The position numbers and the translations under genes are program-made. A stretch of 21,962 nt of DNA, taken from IMG/VR virus record IMGVR_UViG_3300024520_003101, positions 1 to 21,962 of that record; one strand, given 5' to 3'. Every line of letters starts with the position of its first letter. The first letter of the stretch is position 1. Of this stretch, positions 404 through 19,478 are shown one piece after another. A model generated the notes under the pieces. That model made no database searches, had not been told where the DNA came from, and was given only the letters and a program-made list of their open reading frames with translations. The stretch comes from a virus.

Positions 404-1342
404 TTAATTTAATTCTGTTAATATCTGTACAAACATTGCGGCTACATTTAATTCTTTTGCTACTACGTGTACATCCTTTGCTTGTGCTTCTGCTAATATT
501 AATAATAATGGTCCTACGTGTCCTTTACCCCAATCGTCAATTTCTTCAAATAATTCTTGATACAATGGTTCAAACGTTTTTGTTTTACTGTCAGCAATAA
601 TAGTTCTTATACTAAATAGTTTATCTTTAAGACTACCTTTAGTTTTTAGTTCTTCTATTACCTTTGTAATATAGTTAGCTACCAAAGCACTATGTGAATC
701 AATTGTAAGTTTACCATCTACAATTTGTCTCTGTGCTGAATTAAGTACTCGTCTAATATCCGGATATCCATTATTAACGCAAGTAGCTACATCATTCATA
801 TCGTGTTCGATATTTTCCGTTTTAAGTATATCTACTAACCTCATCGCTACTTCCTTTTTACTTGGTGGATATACACCAAATACCTGACATCTACTTTGTA
901 TTGGGTCTGATATCTTCTCTATATAATTACACGTAAGTATAAATCTACAACTTTTACTAAAGGCTTCCATTGTATTACGTAATGCAGCTTGTGCATTGTG
1001 TGTTAAATAATCGGCCTCATCAAGTATAATAACTTTACCTCCAGAACTAAAGCCTACTGTACTAGCAAACGCTGTAATTTTTTCACGTACATCATCCACT
1101 CGTCCCTGATCAGACGCGTTAATATACATCACGTCACAATCGATATTATGAGTAATAAGTTTAGCAATTGTAGTTTTACCTGTTCCGGCAACACCATATA
1201 ATAGTAAGTGTGGTATATCCCCGTTTTCAATATATACCTTCACTTTACTAATTATGTCTTCGTTACCAACATAGTTTCCTATTTGAGTTGGTCTGTATTT
1301 TTCGACCCAAAGTGTGTGTTCGGTTTCTACTTGTTCAAACAT
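404..1342 (-). CDS. gp44: Sliding-clamp loader ATPase (T4 gp44-like)
   Basis: A 312-residue AAA+ protein of the RFC small-subunit/gp44 family (T4 gp44 is 319 aa). It opens the clamp and loads it on primer-template DNA using ATP. Visible motifs: RFC box WVEKYRP (12-18), Walker A GVAGTGKT (50-57), Walker B IILDEAD (105-111), sensor-1 region LTCN (136-139) and the family-specific SRC motif (150-152), which supplies the arginine finger to the neighbouring subunit. The gene follows the clamp gene with a one-base gap (stop TAA, then ATG at 1342), so translation is probably coupled. T4 also needs gp62 for loading; no gp62-like gene follows here. Confidence 0.95.
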   Translation of the reverse strand: MFEQVETEHTLWVEKYRPTQIGNYVGNEDIISKVKVYIENGDIPHLLLYGVAGTGKTTIAKLITHNIDCDVMYINASDQGRVDDVREKITAFASTVGFSSGGKVIILDEADYLTHNAQAALRNTMEAFSKSCRFILTCNYIEKISDPIQSRCQVFGVYPPSKKEVAMRLVDILKTENIEHDMNDVATCVNNGYPDIRRVLNSAQRQIVDGKLTIDSHSALVANYITKVIEELKTKGSLKDKLFSIRTIIADSKTKTFEPLYQELFEEIDDWGKGHVGPLLLILAEAQAKDVHVVAKELNVAAMFVQILTELN

Positions 1343-1343
1343 A

Positions 1344-2054
1344 TTATGATAATTGACTCATTACAATATAATAACTAGTTTCAAATTCATCGTCTGTAAA
1401 TGACAACTGCATTAAGCCTTTTGCACTAACTTTCAACGTACCTTTCATTCCTCTATTAGCATTTAAGACGTCTTTAAACATATCTGCAGGAAAGGCTACT
1501 GCTTGAATATCAGTTACTTTTGTGGCAGCTACATCAAATGTTAATCTGTTAGTATTAATCGATGAATAGTTAATAATAAATTGTACGTCTGTACCATTTG
1601 TTGTTACAGCAAAGTTTTCCGCTTCAGGTACTGCATTTCTAGCTTTAATAAAATCCGATATTAACGAACTAGTTACGTCAATTTCAATTTCCCAAGATGG
1701 TAAATCTTTAATAGCGGGTGCTTTCTTTACAACGCTTGGGTCAGCTAACATAAACTTAGCTTTATTCTTTTTGTCCTCAATACTAATTGCGTGTTTTTGT
1801 TTTTCATCTCCGTCAAACTTTACATCTATATCATTAGCTAATGCTGTTAACATTTTGTTTAATTTTGATGTTTGGTAAATACCAATTTTAGCATCCGTAA
1901 TTGGGTTATTTTTTAACTTAACATTTCCTACTAAGTTCTGTGAATCTGACACAAAATCGCAAGATAATGTACCGTTTGAATCCCATATAACAGATTCGAT
2001 TGTTCCTGCTAAGTGGTATTTGTCTATAAATTTTTGTAGTGTTACTTTTTCCAT
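1344..2054 (-). CDS. gp45: DNA polymerase sliding clamp (T4 gp45-like)
   Basis: A 236-residue protein of the size of T4 gp45 (228 aa). It is placed immediately before the clamp-loader ATPase, as in T4. The sequence has the alternating beta-strand character of clamps and lacks enzymatic motifs; the N-terminal helix (MEKVTLQKFIDKYHLAGTI) and the C-terminal strand ending in SYYIVMSQLS fit the family. In T4 the trimeric ring tethers polymerase and also activates late transcription. The start at 2054 has no Shine-Dalgarno (AAAAATAATT leader) and lies eight bases after the dpdA stop. The call rests on both sequence feel and synteny, because clamps diverge quickly. Confidence 0.88.
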   Translation of the reverse strand: MEKVTLQKFIDKYHLAGTIESVIWDSNGTLSCDFVSDSQNLVGNVKLKNNPITDAKIGIYQTSKLNKMLTALANDIDVKFDGDEKQKHAISIEDKKNKAKFMLADPSVVKKAPAIKDLPSWEIEIDVTSSLISDFIKARNAVPEAENFAVTTNGTDVQFIINYSSINTNRLTFDVAATKVTDIQAVAFPADMFKDVLNANRGMKGTLKVSAKGLMQLSFTDDEFETSYYIVMSQLS

Positions 2055-2062
2055 AATTATTT

Positions 2063-3256
2063 TTATTGATTAAAATTGAAGAATTCTTGAATTACTTTGT
2101 CGTTTGTTTGTGTCTTACTCATATTTCCATATTTTAAGAACACTTGTTCATATTTGTAAAATGTTTTTACAGGTTCGTCACTCATTATTAGTTCCCTAAC
2201 AATATTCTGTAATTGATAATACCCATTGCCTAATATTTCTTTAGTCATTTCTTTGTGAGAATCTACTAAGTTATTAAGTACTCCAATCATATTAGTCTGA
2301 AAGGCTAAATTATGGTTTGTCATCATCATATAAGTTTGTTGGTCATATGGTTCAACTTCAGAATAAGTTCTTCCGACACAAGCTGGACAACCTAATCTAC
2401 AAGGAAGTTTACCTTTTAGATTGTAATCAGTTTTACCTTTGTTTCCAAAATAACACGTAATTTGTTTCATTCCTCTCCAATCTATATCGTGAAACCAGCT
2501 ACCAAATACTGTTGCTCTATTACAACTAGAACTATCTGTTGTTATTTGTATTCTATTGTCAAACCTTTCATTCAACGCCTTTTGTATTACAGCAAAGAAC
2601 CAAAAGTTTTCTACAGCTGTAGCACCAAGTAAATGTAAGTACTTATTATGTGTTTTTTCAAATTCCTTTTCTTGTATAAATCTTGCAAGTACATACATTA
2701 CGGCATATACGTTACCACCTACACCACCAACTGACCAACCGTCAAATTCAAAGTCTTTCATTTTGTGATACCATTGGTCTAGTTCCCCTTGATTAGCACC
2801 CTGTAACACATTTAAAAACATTGTTTTACCTTGTCTGTTTTCTGTAAAATACTTGAAGTTGTCGTAACTAAGTTGTAACGCTTCATTGTATCCATATAGT
2901 TTCCCTCTTGGAGGAATATCCAAGTTAATAGCAATATCACTATTGTTTTCTAACCACGTTAATACTCTGTCCTTTGTTTCGGGTTTCCATTTAATGGCTC
3001 CGGTACATATCTGATATCCACCAGAATCACCCATTACAAAACAATCACTTCCTAGACCAAAGTCAGCACGTAACGTGTCTTTAGTTAAATTGTGTCCTGC
3101 AGATAGCAAGAAATATTTATGTCTATATTCTTCCGGATATGTGTCACAGTAGAATCGGGATGTAACTCCATTGGCCATCGGTACATTTTTAATTAACCAA
3201 TCCTTTGAATTTCCACTTGACAAGGATGGGAAAAATATAATCTTTTTTTCACTCAT
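2063..3256 (-). CDS. dpdA: DpdA-like 7-deazaguanine DNA transglycosylase (TGT fold)
   Basis: A 397-residue tRNA-guanine-transglycosylase-like protein; in phages this family (DpdA) exchanges guanine in DNA for a 7-deazaguanine. The TGT active site is visible: D77-SGGYQ (78-82), matching the DSGGFQ motif with its general acid/base Asp; LDIPP (112-116); GWSVGGVGG (173-181); LHLLGAT (207-213); and D241 in TTDSSS, matching the nucleophilic Asp. The zinc site is C286-x3-C290-x2-C293 with H315, slightly different from the C-x-C-x2-C of tRNA enzymes. FolE, QueD, QueE and a precursor transporter nearby support a DNA-modifying role over tRNA queuosine. The last residues (IQEFFNFNQ) resemble the polymerase C-terminus (IGQFFQF), a clamp-binding-type tail. 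It has its own promoter (3287-3318) and leads the clamp unit. Which deazaguanine it inserts cannot be read from the sequence. Confidence 0.87.
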   Translation of the reverse strand: MSEKKIIFFPSLSSGNSKDWLIKNVPMANGVTSRFYCDTYPEEYRHKYFLLSAGHNLTKDTLRADFGLGSDCFVMGDSGGYQICTGAIKWKPETKDRVLTWLENNSDIAINLDIPPRGKLYGYNEALQLSYDNFKYFTENRQGKTMFLNVLQGANQGELDQWYHKMKDFEFDGWSVGGVGGNVYAVMYVLARFIQEKEFEKTHNKYLHLLGATAVENFWFFAVIQKALNERFDNRIQITTDSSSCNRATVFGSWFHDIDWRGMKQITCYFGNKGKTDYNLKGKLPCRLGCPACVGRTYSEVEPYDQQTYMMMTNHNLAFQTNMIGVLNNLVDSHKEMTKEILGNGYYQLQNIVRELIMSDEPVKTFYKYEQVFLKYGNMSKTQTNDKVIQEFFNFNQ

Positions 3257-3318: not shown

Positions 3319-6033
3319 TTAAAATTGAAAAAATTGTCCAATTGCTGAATTGTCTATAAACTTTCCATATCCCAATGCATCGTAAAATTGTTGTAGTTTC
3401 TTACCCAACAATTTATCGAATACTTTGTCATAATCAACGTATTGTTCGATAAATGTTAGTACTTCTTCTGGGTCTTCAAATCCACGTATTCCCAAATTTT
3501 CTATTCCAAGTGGATTTTGTTTCAAGTATATAAACTTAATTTTGTCACCATTTGTAATAGGTTGAAATTGAACTTTATTTCCTTTTGTTAATATGTTGTT
3601 GTAAGCTATTGCCGCTTTAACGTGTGCCGGAGTTCCTTTTGGAAAATTAAACAAATGTGATTGTATTGATTCATATTTCTTAATATCCTTAATAGAACTA
3701 GGTGACATTATGTCAATAGTTTTACGTGTCTTAACACTATCTTTAAATGTACATACAAAATCATTAGCGTTTGATTCCGGCAATCCGGTAAGTACTTTCA
3801 ATAAGAAATCTCCCATAAATGTTCTAAATGCTTTTGGGAAATTACTACGTACAACATCAAGTCCCTTTACGTCTAAGTGTGGTTTCTTTAAATGTACACC
3901 TTCCTCGTTTAATATAAGTTGTGCGTATCGTTTCTTAGCTAACCAAAATCCTGCCTTAGATACAAGTTCCTGTTTAATCTCAAGTCTATGTTCTGTTAAG
4001 TTGTGAAACTTGTCAGCATACACATTGTAAGCATTGTTAATGAATGTTTGTATTTCAGATGCTATCTTTAGTGTTTCCTCTGTTACTCGTATGTCATCTG
4101 TTATTTTAACATCGGGAAACCGTTTCTGTATAATTGGCCAACTACTAAAGAATACAGAATCTGTGTCAATGTATATATTATAGTCTACATCCTTTGTATT
4201 ACATATTTGATTGTACTTTTGGTTAGTAATATCCGCAGTAAATTTAATAATTTGTTGTCCCGAAAGTGTAGTTGCTTCGGCATTGTCCACATCATAAAAC
4301 CTAAATGATGCAAGCGCTAACACCCCGTAAAAAGAGTTCAGTAATACTTTCTGTACTAACTGTCTGTTATGATAAAACTTTGTTTTGTCTGTATCTCCGG
4401 CACGTTTATAGTCTTTCATTTTGTCTTTAAACTCTACACGTTCGTCAAACCAACTAGACAGAATACTAGGAATAAAGCCTTGTTTAGTTTTATCATACAT
4501 TACACCATTAGCTGCAATAGATAAATTAGTATCCTTTAAATACTTAACAAAATTTGTGGTATTGTATGTTGTAACAGAACTACCTATTTTTACTTTGTAC
4601 TCTTTTTCCGTTAGTTTAACAAAGTCTTTACCCTCAAAGTTCAAACACTTTCCTACCTTAGTTTCCGGACTAATTCCCAATGACATAATAATACTTGGAT
4701 ATAGTGATGTTAAATCCAAATCGTATATCCAATCGTATCTACCCGGAACAGGTTGTTTTACATAGGCTCCTTCAAGTGATGTTTTAACTTCATATTCCTT
4801 TAATACGTTTTCGGGTAAAGGTTCCTCTAGTATAAAGTAATCACTCTTAAAAGACTTATACTTTACAACAAACTTTGAACTAGTTGTTTTGTATATTTTT
4901 AACTGTCCCGAACCTGGAACTCTGTTTGGAATAGTATCATTCATATAAAGCTTTAGTTCTCCTTTTTCGTGTGAATGTGAAAGCGCTAACTTAACAGGTG
5001 GTTTCTTGTTTGGAGCAACTATGTCTAGTCGTTTTAAATATGTTAGACTTGCTCCGTCAAGATACTTACTTGCAAAGTACGCTGCATCGTATGGTACGTG
5101 TCCTTTATGACATATTCCTCGTGCTAGCTCAATAAACCCTAACTTTTTATCTAAGTCTACTACTAGTTCGACGTCAACTAAGTTGTATTCAATAAACTTT
5201 TCAATGTCTGTAGCATATAAGTCGTTTAGGTTTCCGTCATATTCAATTTTACCTCTACCCAATTCCTTACGTGAAATGGCGTCAAGTGCATATGAAGATT
5301 CTTCATTGTATGTAAACTTTTTATATAGTTCAATGTAGTCTAAGGAAGATACACCTGCTATTTTATATCGTGGATCGTCTTCATCTTTTTTGTGAAGAGG
5401 TTCTACGATTCCTAATGGACTTAAACAACCTGCTTTCTTTTTACCAATTACTTTAACTGACCTGTTATACAAATATGGAACATCGAAACTATCAATATTC
5501 CATCCTGTAATAATATGAGGAGATATTGTGTTGTAAATACTGTAAAATCTTTCAAGTAATAAACGTTCTGATGGAACTACATATATTTCTACATTGTCTA
5601 TTTTACGTGGTTTTACTTTTAGTTCTGAGTCGAGAATTATAACGTGTTTTTCATCAGCTTGATGGTCATATAACGCTATGGAGTTTATTACGTTGTTTGC
5701 TTCTTGTACTGTGCTATATCCGTGGTCTTCATCTTTTACAATCTCAATATCAAAGGTACATATTTTTATACCTGTAGATGGAGTATCATCTTGAAGATAC
5801 ATATCTATCAATGTTCTTGTAGTTACCGTAACGTCAGATTCGTAAACATTATCACGCTTATGACCTTCTAAATCTGTTGTTTTTCTACATCTTTGACCAA
5901 ATAGGGTTACGTATTTTCCGTTTGGGTCTTTAACATAACCATAACGTTGATATGGTATTTTAAAATATCCTTTACGGTCGTCCCAAATGTGGACTGTTTT
6001 TTTCTTGGCTTCATAGTAAATATTTTGGTACAT
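3319..6033 (-). CDS. gp43: Replicative DNA polymerase, family B (T4 gp43-like)
   Basis: A 904-residue polymerase (T4 gp43 is 898 aa) with an intact proofreading exonuclease and polymerase. Exo I is FDIE with D95 and E97; Exo II is in GWNIDSFDVPYL (about 176-190); Exo III is in YNLVDVEL (about 280). Polymerase motif A DLTSLYPS has catalytic D440, motif B is KVLLNSFYG (562-570) and motif C is YIDTDS with D623 and D625; a KKRYAQ motif follows. The final residues IGQFFQF resemble the C-terminal clamp-docking tail of T4 gp43 (LFDMFDF). The gene is unsplit, with no intron or intein. It starts directly at the yhhQ stop (stop codon then ATG), so the two are translationally close; the promoter for the next unit abuts its stop. 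Confidence 0.97.
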   Translation of the reverse strand: MYQNIYYEAKKKTVHIWDDRKGYFKIPYQRYGYVKDPNGKYVTLFGQRCRKTTDLEGHKRDNVYESDVTVTTRTLIDMYLQDDTPSTGIKICTFDIEIVKDEDHGYSTVQEANNVINSIALYDHQADEKHVIILDSELKVKPRKIDNVEIYVVPSERLLLERFYSIYNTISPHIITGWNIDSFDVPYLYNRSVKVIGKKKAGCLSPLGIVEPLHKKDEDDPRYKIAGVSSLDYIELYKKFTYNEESSYALDAISRKELGRGKIEYDGNLNDLYATDIEKFIEYNLVDVELVVDLDKKLGFIELARGICHKGHVPYDAAYFASKYLDGASLTYLKRLDIVAPNKKPPVKLALSHSHEKGELKLYMNDTIPNRVPGSGQLKIYKTTSSKFVVKYKSFKSDYFILEEPLPENVLKEYEVKTSLEGAYVKQPVPGRYDWIYDLDLTSLYPSIIMSLGISPETKVGKCLNFEGKDFVKLTEKEYKVKIGSSVTTYNTTNFVKYLKDTNLSIAANGVMYDKTKQGFIPSILSSWFDERVEFKDKMKDYKRAGDTDKTKFYHNRQLVQKVLLNSFYGVLALASFRFYDVDNAEATTLSGQQIIKFTADITNQKYNQICNTKDVDYNIYIDTDSVFFSSWPIIQKRFPDVKITDDIRVTEETLKIASEIQTFINNAYNVYADKFHNLTEHRLEIKQELVSKAGFWLAKKRYAQLILNEEGVHLKKPHLDVKGLDVVRSNFPKAFRTFMGDFLLKVLTGLPESNANDFVCTFKDSVKTRKTIDIMSPSSIKDIKKYESIQSHLFNFPKGTPAHVKAAIAYNNILTKGNKVQFQPITNGDKIKFIYLKQNPLGIENLGIRGFEDPEEVLTFIEQYVDYDKVFDKLLGKKLQQFYDALGYGKFIDNSAIGQFFQF

Positions 6034-6522
6034 TTATTTTAATTTGTTTTTAAAGATTAACGTGAATAAAAATCCACCACTAAATTTTATTAATGTTTGT
6101 ATTACTACAATCCAAGGGTCAAACCCAAAGAATAGTAATGTAAATACTAAACTATCAGCTATACTAGCAAAAAAGTTAGAAGTATTCATTCTAACAAACT
6201 TTGTCGTGTTTAACATCATTTGATATATTCCCGCATTAACAGTCATAGATGCAGTGAAAGCTGCTACACTTGCTACGGCAACTTGTAATGTGTCATGATT
6301 AAATAACCAAGTTATAAATCCACCTAACACAATTAATCCAGCCATTCGTAGTGTTATGTTATTATCTTTCCATCGTTCGTGTAAGATATCACGTAACACC
6401 ATATCAAGTGGAATTAAAAAAAATCCCACTAAATAAAAAGCGTACTCTCTAAATTCTATTATAGCTAGATTAGCACTTACTAAGGCTAGTAGATATATTA
6501 ATATTACTATCCACGTTTTCAT
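6034..6522 (-). CDS. yhhQ: Queuosine-precursor transporter, YhhQ/VUT family (short form)
   Basis: A 162-residue, very hydrophobic protein with about five predicted membrane helices (near 3-22, 28-45, 58-75, 80-103 and 118-156, the last stretch possibly two). The segment LIPLDMVLRDILHERW (36-51) matches the conserved core (L-x-LRD-x-LH) of the short VUT/DUF165 family, whose E. coli member YhhQ imports preQ0 and preQ1. In a phage this would load the infected cell with ready-made deazaguanine or keep the pool high. The gene lies between an HNH endonuclease and gp43 with gaps of three bases or fewer. Family assignment is from the core motif, length and the deazaguanine context; the exact substrate is inferred. 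Confidence 0.75.
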   Translation of the reverse strand: MKTWIVILIYLLALVSANLAIIEFREYAFYLVGFFLIPLDMVLRDILHERWKDNNITLRMAGLIVLGGFITWLFNHDTLQVAVASVAAFTASMTVNAGIYQMMLNTTKFVRMNTSNFFASIADSLVFTLLFFGFDPWIVVIQTLIKFSGGFLFTLIFKNKLK

Positions 6523-6525
6523 TTA

Positions 6526-7224
6526 CTATATATAACGATTTGTATTCTTTTTTGTTTCATACTGAAAATTAAGTGTTTTGTTATTAAGACTTTGATACTC
6601 ATATATTGTTTTAACTAAACCTAAAAACTTTTCTTTTGGAAAATCTGTCATCATTCTATTAACATATTTATCGACCCACTGAACATTTCCTTTAACATAC
6701 CCTTTCGTACTATCAATTCTATCTAAAGATGCAGTTCTTTGTTGAAAACCATTTTGACTTAACGAACCTACTTTTGTATTAAAATATAAAGGCAACCCGG
6801 ATATTACACATTTTTGTTCCTGTTTAATAAACAAATCCCAAAGATATTCAATTGTTATATCAAACGTATCAAACCTACGACCAGCTTCCTTAATTGTTCT
6901 CCAATAGTCACCGGAAATATCTCCAAAACCTTTCCATAGTTTATGTTTCCTAACAAGTCTTTGGTCTAAATTTTCCATTTGTTTTGTAGTTAGTTGACTG
7001 TGGATATTTCTTAGTTCTTTTGCTTTTTCAGTACCATACAATTCCTCATATGTTTTACCTCTTGTGACGTTTCCTTTTAAGTTTTTAGTTAATTCAGAAT
7101 TTAAATCAGTATTTGGATACTTTATCTTATAATCATTAATTGTCATATTATGACGTTTTAAATGTGTATTAGATATCGACTTAAATTCTTTATTACATTC
7201 ATTACATATTACAAAATCTTTCAT
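6526..7224 (-). CDS. HNH homing-type endonuclease with N-terminal zinc finger
   Basis: A 232-residue protein with two recognisable parts. Residues 7-25 form a C-x2-C-x10-H-x3-H zinc finger (C7, C10, H21, H25), followed by LKRHNMTINDYKIKYP, a MucR/ROS-like segment frequent in phage nucleases. The C-terminal part has the HNH-superfamily core ASLDRID (165-171), GYVKGNVQWV (175-184) and N189, with KCVISGLPL (138-146) before it. Free-standing enzymes of this type spread by cutting and converting alleles lacking the gene. It sits between folE and yhhQ, splitting the deazaguanine genes without interrupting either. Its start has a strong ribosome site (AAGGAG, 5 bases before ATG 7224), unlike most neighbours, which supports independent acquisition. 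Confidence 0.85.
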   Translation of the reverse strand: MKDFVICNECNKEFKSISNTHLKRHNMTINDYKIKYPNTDLNSELTKNLKGNVTRGKTYEELYGTEKAKELRNIHSQLTTKQMENLDQRLVRKHKLWKGFGDISGDYWRTIKEAGRRFDTFDITIEYLWDLFIKQEQKCVISGLPLYFNTKVGSLSQNGFQQRTASLDRIDSTKGYVKGNVQWVDKYVNRMMTDFPKEKFLGLVKTIYEYQSLNNKTLNFQYETKKNTNRYI

Positions 7225-7284
7225 TAAACTCCTTGTGTTGTTACCATTATGTTTATTAATAAGTATATGGAAACAACAAAAGTT

Positions 7285-7989
7285 TTAAGTTTTATAAGAT
7301 AATTCTATATTTTTATAAAATTCTGCTCTTGCGGATTGAGATGTTTCGAACGCACCCGATATTTTATTTGTTTGCATACTAGCACCTTGATGCTTAGTAC
7401 CTCTACAAGCAACGCAATTGTGTTCTGCAGATATCATTACGGATACTCCTTGATTGTCCGTACAAATTTGAGTTACTGCATTATGAATTGCTACAGTTAA
7501 TTGTTCTTGAATTGCTCCACGTCTAGCAAAATGTTCTACTAAACGATTTAATTTTGATAGTCCAACAACTTTACCATCTTTACTTGGTATGTAAGCTACG
7601 TGACACGTACCCTTAATAGTTAAGTGATGATGAGAACACATACTTACGATAGGTATTCTACTTTGTTGTACAATTCCATCGTACCCGTCTGCCGGAAATG
7701 CTGTAATATCGGGAGCAACTTCATATCTTCCTTTCCACAAATCATTTACGTAAGCTTTTGCTACTCTCAATGGTGTATTGTTACTGTTTGGGTCATTTTC
7801 CCAATCTACACCAAGTGCAGTCAGAAAGTTACCAAAACACTCAGCGGCATCTTCTATAATTTGTTTTTTATCCTGTTCATCTAATGTAGCTTGAGGACCT
7901 TCTATTGCTTGTTTCTCTGCTAAGTGTTCACTAATACCATTAGCCATACCAGCTTTTACCGTTTCAATGTTAACTTTTTTGTCTGTCAC
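7285..7989 (-). CDS. folE: GTP cyclohydrolase I
   Basis: A 234-residue FolE. It converts GTP to 7,8-dihydroneopterin triphosphate, the first step of both folate and 7-deazaguanine synthesis. The zinc and catalytic region is clear: C118-SHHH (H121 the expected ligand), TIKGTCHVAYIP (124-135), VVGLSKLNRLVEHFARR (141-157) and H190-N-C192, giving the C/H/C zinc set; RG follows at 196-197. The N-terminal 45 residues are extra, polar and poorly conserved. The start is GTG at 7989 with AAAGGA about seven bases upstream and a 20-base overlap with the 79-aa membrane gene; the next in-frame ATG (Met15) is an alternative. With QueD and QueE it makes CDG. Confidence 0.95.
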   Translation of the reverse strand: MTDKKVNIETVKAGMANGISEHLAEKQAIEGPQATLDEQDKKQIIEDAAECFGNFLTALGVDWENDPNSNNTPLRVAKAYVNDLWKGRYEVAPDITAFPADGYDGIVQQSRIPIVSMCSHHHLTIKGTCHVAYIPSKDGKVVGLSKLNRLVEHFARRGAIQEQLTVAIHNAVTQICTDNQGVSVMISAEHNCVACRGTKHQGASMQTNKISGAFETSQSARAEFYKNIELSYKT

Positions 7990-8209
7990 TTTTATCCTTT
8001 TTTAAATTACAAAATCCATATATATTTATTCCTATTATCAGTCCACTTAATACGCCGTGACTGAAATTGTTAATTAGTACATCATATACTATCCAACCTA
8101 CGTCACCAATTACCCATAATATTATTGCCAATGCCAATTTTTGTTTGGCATTAACATAAAATCCTATTATAACTAATAACGTACATAACCATCCTAATAA
8201 TTCTACCAT
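7970..8209 (-). CDS. Small three-helix membrane protein
   Basis: A 79-residue protein with three hydrophobic segments (about 3-18, 25-45 and 53-68) and a short basic tail (KKDKSDRQKS). The pattern of an N-terminal LLGW, KLALAIILWVIGDVGWIVYD in the middle and NIYG near the end is reminiscent of small PnuC- or YgjV-like half-transporters, but I cannot assign a family. Its 3' end overlaps folE by 20 bases, so the two are translationally coupled. There is no other Met in the frame, and the promoter -7 box ends four bases before the ATG, so the mRNA would have almost no leader. A role in moving a precursor or cofactor for the pathway is conceivable but unproven. Confidence 0.72.
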   Translation of the reverse strand: MVELLGWLCTLLVIIGFYVNAKQKLALAIILWVIGDVGWIVYDVLINNFSHGVLSGLIIGINIYGFCNLKKDKSDRQKS

Positions 8210-18719: not shown

Positions 18720-19478
18720 TTACTTGTTAAACAAGTTGTCAAATGCTGCACCAACGTCATCAACTTTTTCAGTCTTTGTTTCGTTAGCAACTGTATCAGC
18801 AGTTGATGTAGGGTTGTCCGTTTTAGGAGCTTGTTCCCCACCGTTTAACCAAGATTCTAATGCTTCTTTCAAAGTATCATACTCTGGTTCTTTAAAGATA
18901 TCCTCCGCCAATGGTTGGTTGGATATTGCCTCAATAACAGCTTTGTCTTCCGACGCAGGTGATTGATTTGGCTTCACTCTAATTGTAGTTTTTGGAAAGT
19001 TTCCTGCTCCTTCTGCTGGTGTAAACTCAACAGATACATCTCTACCAGATGCTGGATCAGTGATGTCACCGTAATCCTCGTCAGCCATAAATCCTAGTAA
19101 TTCAGTGTAAACTGTTTTACCAAATCCCCAAAGCTTAACGCCTTCTGATTCTTTACCTCTTACTAATACCGGAACATATACTCTCATCTTTGGAGTAATT
19201 TGTCTTGACAGTTGCCAATCTTCTTTACTTCCTGTTGATTTTAGTTTTTCCGCAAACTCCATTAATGGGTCTGGTCTTCCGTATGACGTTGGAGATAAAT
19301 ACGTTTTACCACCTAGTCCATAGTGAAAGTACAACTCGTGGAATGGATATTCCGGATTTGTTTTGTTTGGTACTATTCTGATTACTTGATTACCTGGTTC
19401 AGGTTTCCACAAATTGTCTTGTTTTTGTGTTTTTGTTTGAAGTTTTTGTAACTTTTTTCTTACTGCTTCTAAATCCAT
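18720..19478 (-). CDS. gp32: Single-stranded DNA-binding protein (T4 gp32-like)
   Basis: A 252-residue gp32-type SSB (T4 gp32 is 301 aa). The N-terminal basic segment (MDLEAVRKKLQKLQTKTQKQ) serves cooperativity. The OB core follows, with LWKPEPGNQVIRIVP (about 23-37), FHYGLGGKTYLSP and VPVLVRGKESEGVKLWGFGKTV. The C-terminal 40 residues are acidic and disordered with a hydrophobic end (DDVGAAFDNLFNK), the usual partner-binding tail. There is no cysteine at all, so the structural zinc site of T4 gp32 is missing, as the region around GLGGKTYL also lacks the corresponding His/Cys set. It has its own promoter (19528-19559) and a terminator hairpin just after, which fits a protein needed in large amounts. 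Confidence 0.93.
   Translation of the reverse strand: MDLEAVRKKLQKLQTKTQKQDNLWKPEPGNQVIRIVPNKTNPEYPFHELYFHYGLGGKTYLSPTSYGRPDPLMEFAEKLKSTGSKEDWQLSRQITPKMRVYVPVLVRGKESEGVKLWGFGKTVYTELLGFMADEDYGDITDPASGRDVSVEFTPAEGAGNFPKTTIRVKPNQSPASEDKAVIEAISNQPLAEDIFKEPEYDTLKEALESWLNGGEQAPKTDNPTSTADTVANETKTEKVDDVGAAFDNLFNK

Follow-up and report, generated by a model that had tools for sequence, protein, structure and literature searches.

How a TGT-type enzyme is targeted and timed during replication is an open question for phages whose DNA carries 7-deazaguanines, such as phage 9g, in which guanines are replaced only in part. The question is raised by a dpdA gene in the virus record IMGVR_UViG_3300024520_003101, analyzed here over all of its 21,962 bases (the window), in which dpdA lies between the genes for a DNA polymerase and a sliding clamp. 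A sequence-only reading had proposed that the DpdA C-terminus resembles that of the polymerase and would carry the enzyme on the clamp, so that guanines would be modified in new DNA right behind the fork.

A dpdA gene within a replication gene cluster

On the minus strand, the genes follow the order polymerase, dpdA, clamp, and gp44-like loader, with gaps of 62, 8, and 1 bp. By gene order, dpdA can fairly be said to open the clamp unit, though the polymerase gene sits just upstream.

404..1342, minus strand: clamp loader large subunit, gp44-like (phrog_168, E 1.4e-80)
1344..2054, minus strand: sliding clamp, gp45/PCNA type, 236 aa (phrog_223, E 1.9e-11; AlphaFold2 PCNA fold)
2063..3256, minus strand: dpdA, predicted TGT-fold DNA 7-deazaguanine insertase, 397 aa (weak matches to PF01702 and TIGR00432; AlphaFold2/Foldseek)
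3319..6033, minus strand: family-B DNA polymerase (PolB, gp43-like), 904 aa (phrog_262, E 1.5e-193; PF00136)
6034-6522, minus strand: PF02592 gene (YhhQ-like, putative queuosine-precursor/vitamin transporter), directly upstream of the polymerase gene

Genes for 7-deazaguanine precursors occur in the same phage: FolE and QueD were recognized by Pfam near dpdA, together with a radical-SAM QueE-like protein scoring below its Pfam cut-off. Vibrio phage 2.275.O likewise has a PF02592 annotation close to dpdA. In a group of 12 related, possibly fragmentary records, FolE, QueD, and QueE occur, and QueC (PF06508) and QueF (PF14489) were not found. Provided that these records cover the genomes well enough, 7-carboxy-7-deazaguanine could be what is inserted, or a host QueC could be needed.

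Sequence searches of the PDB with DpdA and with the clamp gave no match, so folds were compared instead. Using Foldseek, the DpdA model matched TGT structures at E-values down to 1.5e-9 and the bacterial DpdA 7ui4 at 8.7e-6, with TM-scores of 0.43-0.57 that indicate a distant match. Two aspartates, D77 (DSGG) and D241 (DSS), were invariant in 31 diverse DpdAs and are candidate catalytic residues that would correspond to the TGT catalytic pair. On the basis of sequence and model, the window DpdA is predicted to belong to the TGT-type DNA 7-deazaguanine insertases. The clamp model (pLDDT 94.6) showed a PCNA fold, with a Z-score of 22.9 to Haloferax PCNA; T4 and RB69 gp45 entries were absent among the fold matches listed.

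The C-terminal tail of DpdA resembles the polymerase clamp peptide

Direct translation showed that DpdA ends in ...TNDKVIQEFFNFNQ and PolB in ...IDNSAIGQFFQF. When the end peptides NDKVIQEFFNFNQ of DpdA and DNSAIGQFFQF of the polymerase were compared, the common I-x-x-F-F-x-F pattern noted earlier proved real; in DpdA, it is followed by the residues NQ.

2066..2101, minus strand: DpdA C-terminal tail DKVIQEFFNFNQ, residues 386-397 (AlphaFold2 short helix 386-392; last-block pLDDT ~63)
2078..2092, minus strand: predicted clamp-docking core I389-Q-E-F-F393 of DpdA (direct translation; FF near-invariant in 65 homologues)
2102..2131, minus strand: DpdA linker, residues 376-385 (low AlphaFold2 confidence; length and sequence vary among homologues)
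3322..3342, minus strand: polymerase C-terminal clamp peptide IGQFFQF (direct translation; kept in 87/96 homologues), with its core encoded at 3328-3342

The Φ-x-x-aromatic-aromatic core thus lies near the DpdA terminus, with IQEFF at residues 389-393 of 397, and the cognate clamp is encoded in the same genome by the next gene downstream. The Φ-x-x-F-F core is shared with the PIP box (QxxΦxxFF), whereas the leading Gln of the full motif is absent, its place being taken by Asp386; the window polymerase tail likewise has no Gln at this position. The polymerase peptide occupies the position of the clamp peptide in RB69/T4 gp43 (PMC3012046), and in T4 the tails of gp43, gp33, and gp55 are interchangeable clamp peptides (PMC2988020). 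Like these proteins of T4 and RB69, DpdA carries a short hydrophobic-acidic peptide at or near its C-terminus, preceded by a divergent linker; in contrast, the T4 and RB69 clients are a polymerase and late-transcription factors, with no base-modification enzyme among them.

In the AlphaFold2 model of the DpdA monomer (mean pLDDT 89.8), the body was confidently predicted, residues 380-384 fell below 50, and the helix formed by residues 386-392 reached about 63. When the possibility of burial was checked, the monomer model placed the tail outside the TGT fold, beyond the low-confidence linker. TGT enzymes form dimers, and the tail could instead be a structural element resting against the TGT body or the partner subunit, with its resemblance to the polymerase tail being convergent. 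In favour of this reading, the model is that of a monomer and the tail takes up a short helix, and the low confidence of linker and tail leaves some probability to docking within a DpdA oligomer; the variable, low-confidence linker argues against it, as do two features of the homologues described below, and overall we consider it improbable.

The tail is conserved in divergent DpdA proteins

Scanning IMG/VR with alignments of DpdA, clamp, and polymerase yielded about 180 related loci, from which redundancy was then removed. The motif, scored as [ILVMFA]xx[FYL]F within the last 14 residues, was kept in 61/65 non-redundant DpdA relatives, which were about 36-43% identical to the window DpdA, and in 87/96 non-redundant polymerase homologues, compared with 46 of 1725 (2.7%) non-redundant proteins of the related loci after DpdA, Pol, and SSB were left out. 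The tail is therefore neither absent nor random in divergent DpdAs, and the resemblance between the two tails is not a matter of chance.

Among the 31 diverse DpdAs, about 38-44% identical to that of the window, the second F was invariant and the first at least 90% conserved, while the linker diverged in sequence and length. When the 65 DpdAs were aligned on the core, the entropy at two core positions was 0.45 and 0.00 bits against ~1.5-2.7 in the preceding linker. Beyond this linker, which diverges and varies in length, FF is the only element conserved. The final x-F of I-x-x-F-F-x-F was retained only partly. The four scored exceptions include DpdAs in which the motif is retained and followed by a C-terminal extension (...EFFDFTEFDKPEPKVV...). 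Several lineages (L038, L064, and most of L282-L361) add at least 30 residues beyond the motif, which argues against a structural element packed on the body.

It could also be supposed that the conserved codons serve the downstream clamp gene as a signal in DNA or mRNA, or that they arose by chance in AT-rich DNA, which abounds in TTT; the window dpdA stop lies 8 bp ahead of the clamp start. However, the motif persisted in loci with dpdA 1.6-2.3 kb away from the clamp, the codons for the first F were mixed (TTT in 40/65, TTC in 20/65), and DpdAs of the 9g group, described below, use all six Leu codons. In the jumbo group, dpdA comes after the clamp gene, and its 3′ end is thus away from the start of the clamp. 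Codon usage and this gene order rule out a DNA-level signal for the clamp start, and conservation set against background (61/65 vs 2.7%, and 57/66 vs 0/419 in the 9g group) rules out a chance origin, leaving very little room for either explanation.

DpdA tails mirror the polymerase tails of the same genome

Pairs of DpdA and polymerase tails from the same genome were closely similar, as in INNLFKF/INSLFKF (L024), IETFFDF/IESFFEF (L016), MNEFFEF/MQQFFEF (L285), LNEFFEF/LQAFFEF (L291), NNNDLFGW/NNTDLFDW (Vibrio phage 2.275.O, L199), and FNSLFDV/FDSLFGW (Pseudomonas phage PAC2). Tails were classed by an aromatic or aliphatic residue at the first core position, with a few regular-expression misses assigned by eye, and the window group and the jumbo/T4-like group were compared together. 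DpdA and polymerase fell into the same class in 102 of 103 loci, 55 with both tails aromatic and 47 with both aliphatic, and differed in one. A naive 2x2 Fisher test, which ignores kinship, gave p ~9e-29; we rejected the significance it implies because the tree of DpdA bodies holds only about 5-6 independent class changes. On supported branches, 3/3 independent pairs agreed (sign test p 0.25), and with so few independent changes a phylogeny-aware covariation test lacks the power to reach significance. That the DpdA core switches in step with the polymerase core argues against a structural role for the tail.

The tail appears to follow the type of clamp

In phage 9g, 8 bp separate dpdA from a following clamp gene of another type (phrog_947), and the polymerase gene comes next. 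An alignment scan yielded 80 loci of the 9g type with 66 non-redundant DpdAs, 57 of which end in [L/F]F no more than two residues from the terminus, typically as QELF, QGLF, or QRLF; such an end was found in 0/419 proteins of other clusters. At first look, DpdAs of this type had been expected to be without a tail, their clamp not being gp45-like; this was wrong, since the proteins end in xxLF. The Gln stood most often two residues ahead of the Leu (33/57), giving the usual form xQELF. Beta clamps are known to bind a QLxLF motif (PMC4549789, PMC3716654), which the 9g tail, with its LF end and usual Gln, resembles without matching it exactly. The 9g-group polymerase has no LF tail; given this and the usual xQELF form, the assignment of the clamp as DpdA partner in this group rests on adjacency and resemblance. 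Ends of this kind also occur in the DpdAs of Streptococcus phage Dp-1 (RQRRLF) and Edwardsiella phage ZHS (KQSLW), and both phages encode phrog_947 clamps.

In the jumbo/T4-like group, the DpdA core was FxxLF or xxFFEF, often followed by an acidic extension. In PAC2, dpdA lies ~340 bp from the clamp gene. Gene neighbourhood also favours a link to the clamp, as no more than 100 bp separate the two genes in 111 of 119 loci. The acidic extension beyond FxxLF in many of the jumbo DpdAs L282-L361 shows a recurring LDESKLEELEDEQ-like pattern and is a possible second interaction segment.

Eight actinophage DpdAs (CRB2, Typha, Sour, Lephleur, Nicole72, Finch, Knocker, and Bipper) had no such tail, and searches with PF00712 and phrog_947 found no clamp in any of the eight genomes. 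These DpdAs are related to one another and divergent from the clamp-bearing groups, so the control represents few independent events. Three phages do not fit the pattern neatly: Peetri and Ep032 gave distant clamp matches, yet their DpdA tails are Lys-rich with at best an internal SLF/TLF, and the DpdA of Phosso ends in VEGLF though no clamp was detected.

Other candidate clamp clients

The gp32-like SSB of the window ends in GAAFDNLFNK.

18720-19478, minus strand: gp32-like SSB
18729..18743, minus strand: FDNLF core at the C-terminus of the SSB (AFxxLF kept in 9/9 homologues)

Judged by its sequence, this tail may be that of a second clamp client or an ordinary SSB interaction tail. Short hydrophobic-acidic C-termini serve many contacts, and the SSB itself ends in AFxxLF, so the DpdA tail might bind a different component of replication, for example the gp32-like SSB or a helicase, in place of the clamp. 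Against this, what DpdA reproduces from the polymerase is, in T4-type phages, the clamp peptide, and dpdA adjoins or lies near the clamp gene in three groups, which have clamps of two types between them. We regard another partner as unlikely, marginally more so than a structural role.

Asparagine-synthase-like proteins (MCGIIGG...) and a small neighbour, encoded in loci of polymerase relatives (L125, L131, L136, L141, and L157), end in NKFFx or SEKFFQF and are possible further clamp clients, too few to interpret. A conserved protein of 340-360 aa (77-member cluster) is encoded between polymerase and dpdA, for example at 6911-7993 on the plus strand of locus L001. It gave only a weak, sub-threshold glycosyltransferase-like match and might further modify the inserted base.

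Discussion

We conclude, with a probability of about 85%, that a C-terminal PIP-like peptide on a flexible linker tethers DpdA to the sliding clamp of the phage. Much of the earlier proposal held: the tail is conserved, mirrors that of the polymerase, falls beyond the TGT fold in the model, and is missing from the DpdAs of actinophages in which no clamp gene was detected, and dpdA sits close to the clamp gene. From this we infer the binding of DpdA to the clamp, a pocket common with the polymerase tail, coupling to the fork, and a benefit to the phage. In the proposed mechanism, the DpdA tail would plug into the pocket of the PCNA/gp45-type clamp used by the polymerase tail, and once the gp44-like loader has placed this clamp on duplex DNA, DpdA would be kept there and would swap guanines of the replicated phage DNA for a 7-deazaguanine. 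The tether would raise the local concentration and processivity of DpdA and would mark DNA bearing the phage's own clamp.

Somewhat less firmly, we think it probable that phage DpdAs in general are tethered to clamps. The peptide appears to follow the clamp type, being PIP-like FF or FxxLF with gp45/PCNA-type clamps and QxLF-like with beta-type clamps, to track the polymerase tail where one is present, and to be absent in the clamp-less actinophages; the phage's own clamp would then be a self-label directing base replacement to new phage DNA. The 9g DpdA (PMC6884629) belongs to the same enzyme family as the window protein, with the same FolE/QueD/QueE pathway and dpdA beside a clamp gene, and differs in having a beta-like clamp and an LF-type tail. 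The text of that paper never mentions clamps.

The sequence-only reading had called a clamp-tethered base-exchange enzyme a new arrangement. In kind this was overstated, since T4 alpha-glucosyltransferase (alpha-GT) is a binding partner of gp45 (Sommer 2004; confirmed in PMC13216743), and clamp-bound phage base modification is therefore not new; the TGT/DpdA case appears to be unreported, as no paper linking DpdA to a sliding clamp was found (subscription literature aside, with co-mentions judged by title). Both alpha-GT and DpdA would be phage DNA-modifying enzymes on a phage sliding clamp, proposed to act with replication. However, alpha-GT is a GT-B enzyme that adds glucose to hydroxymethylcytosine, whereas DpdA has a predicted TGT fold and would exchange the whole guanine, and clamp binding, shown for alpha-GT, is predicted for DpdA. 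A 2026 study of T4 found that gp45 binding is not the main cause of alpha-GT's share of glucosylation (PMC13216743), so a tether can exist without setting the extent of modification. To our knowledge, a clamp-tethered base-exchange (TGT) enzyme whose tails follow the clamp type appears to be a new variant.

If true, the clamp tether would explain why dpdA lies beside clamp genes and would bring T4 alpha-GT and DpdA under one logic. The idea is concrete and can be checked with a 12-residue peptide, and clamp tails offer a route to other base-modification enzymes. Since many diverse phages keep a tail like the polymerase clamp peptide on DpdA, they probably mark their own DNA while it is being copied.
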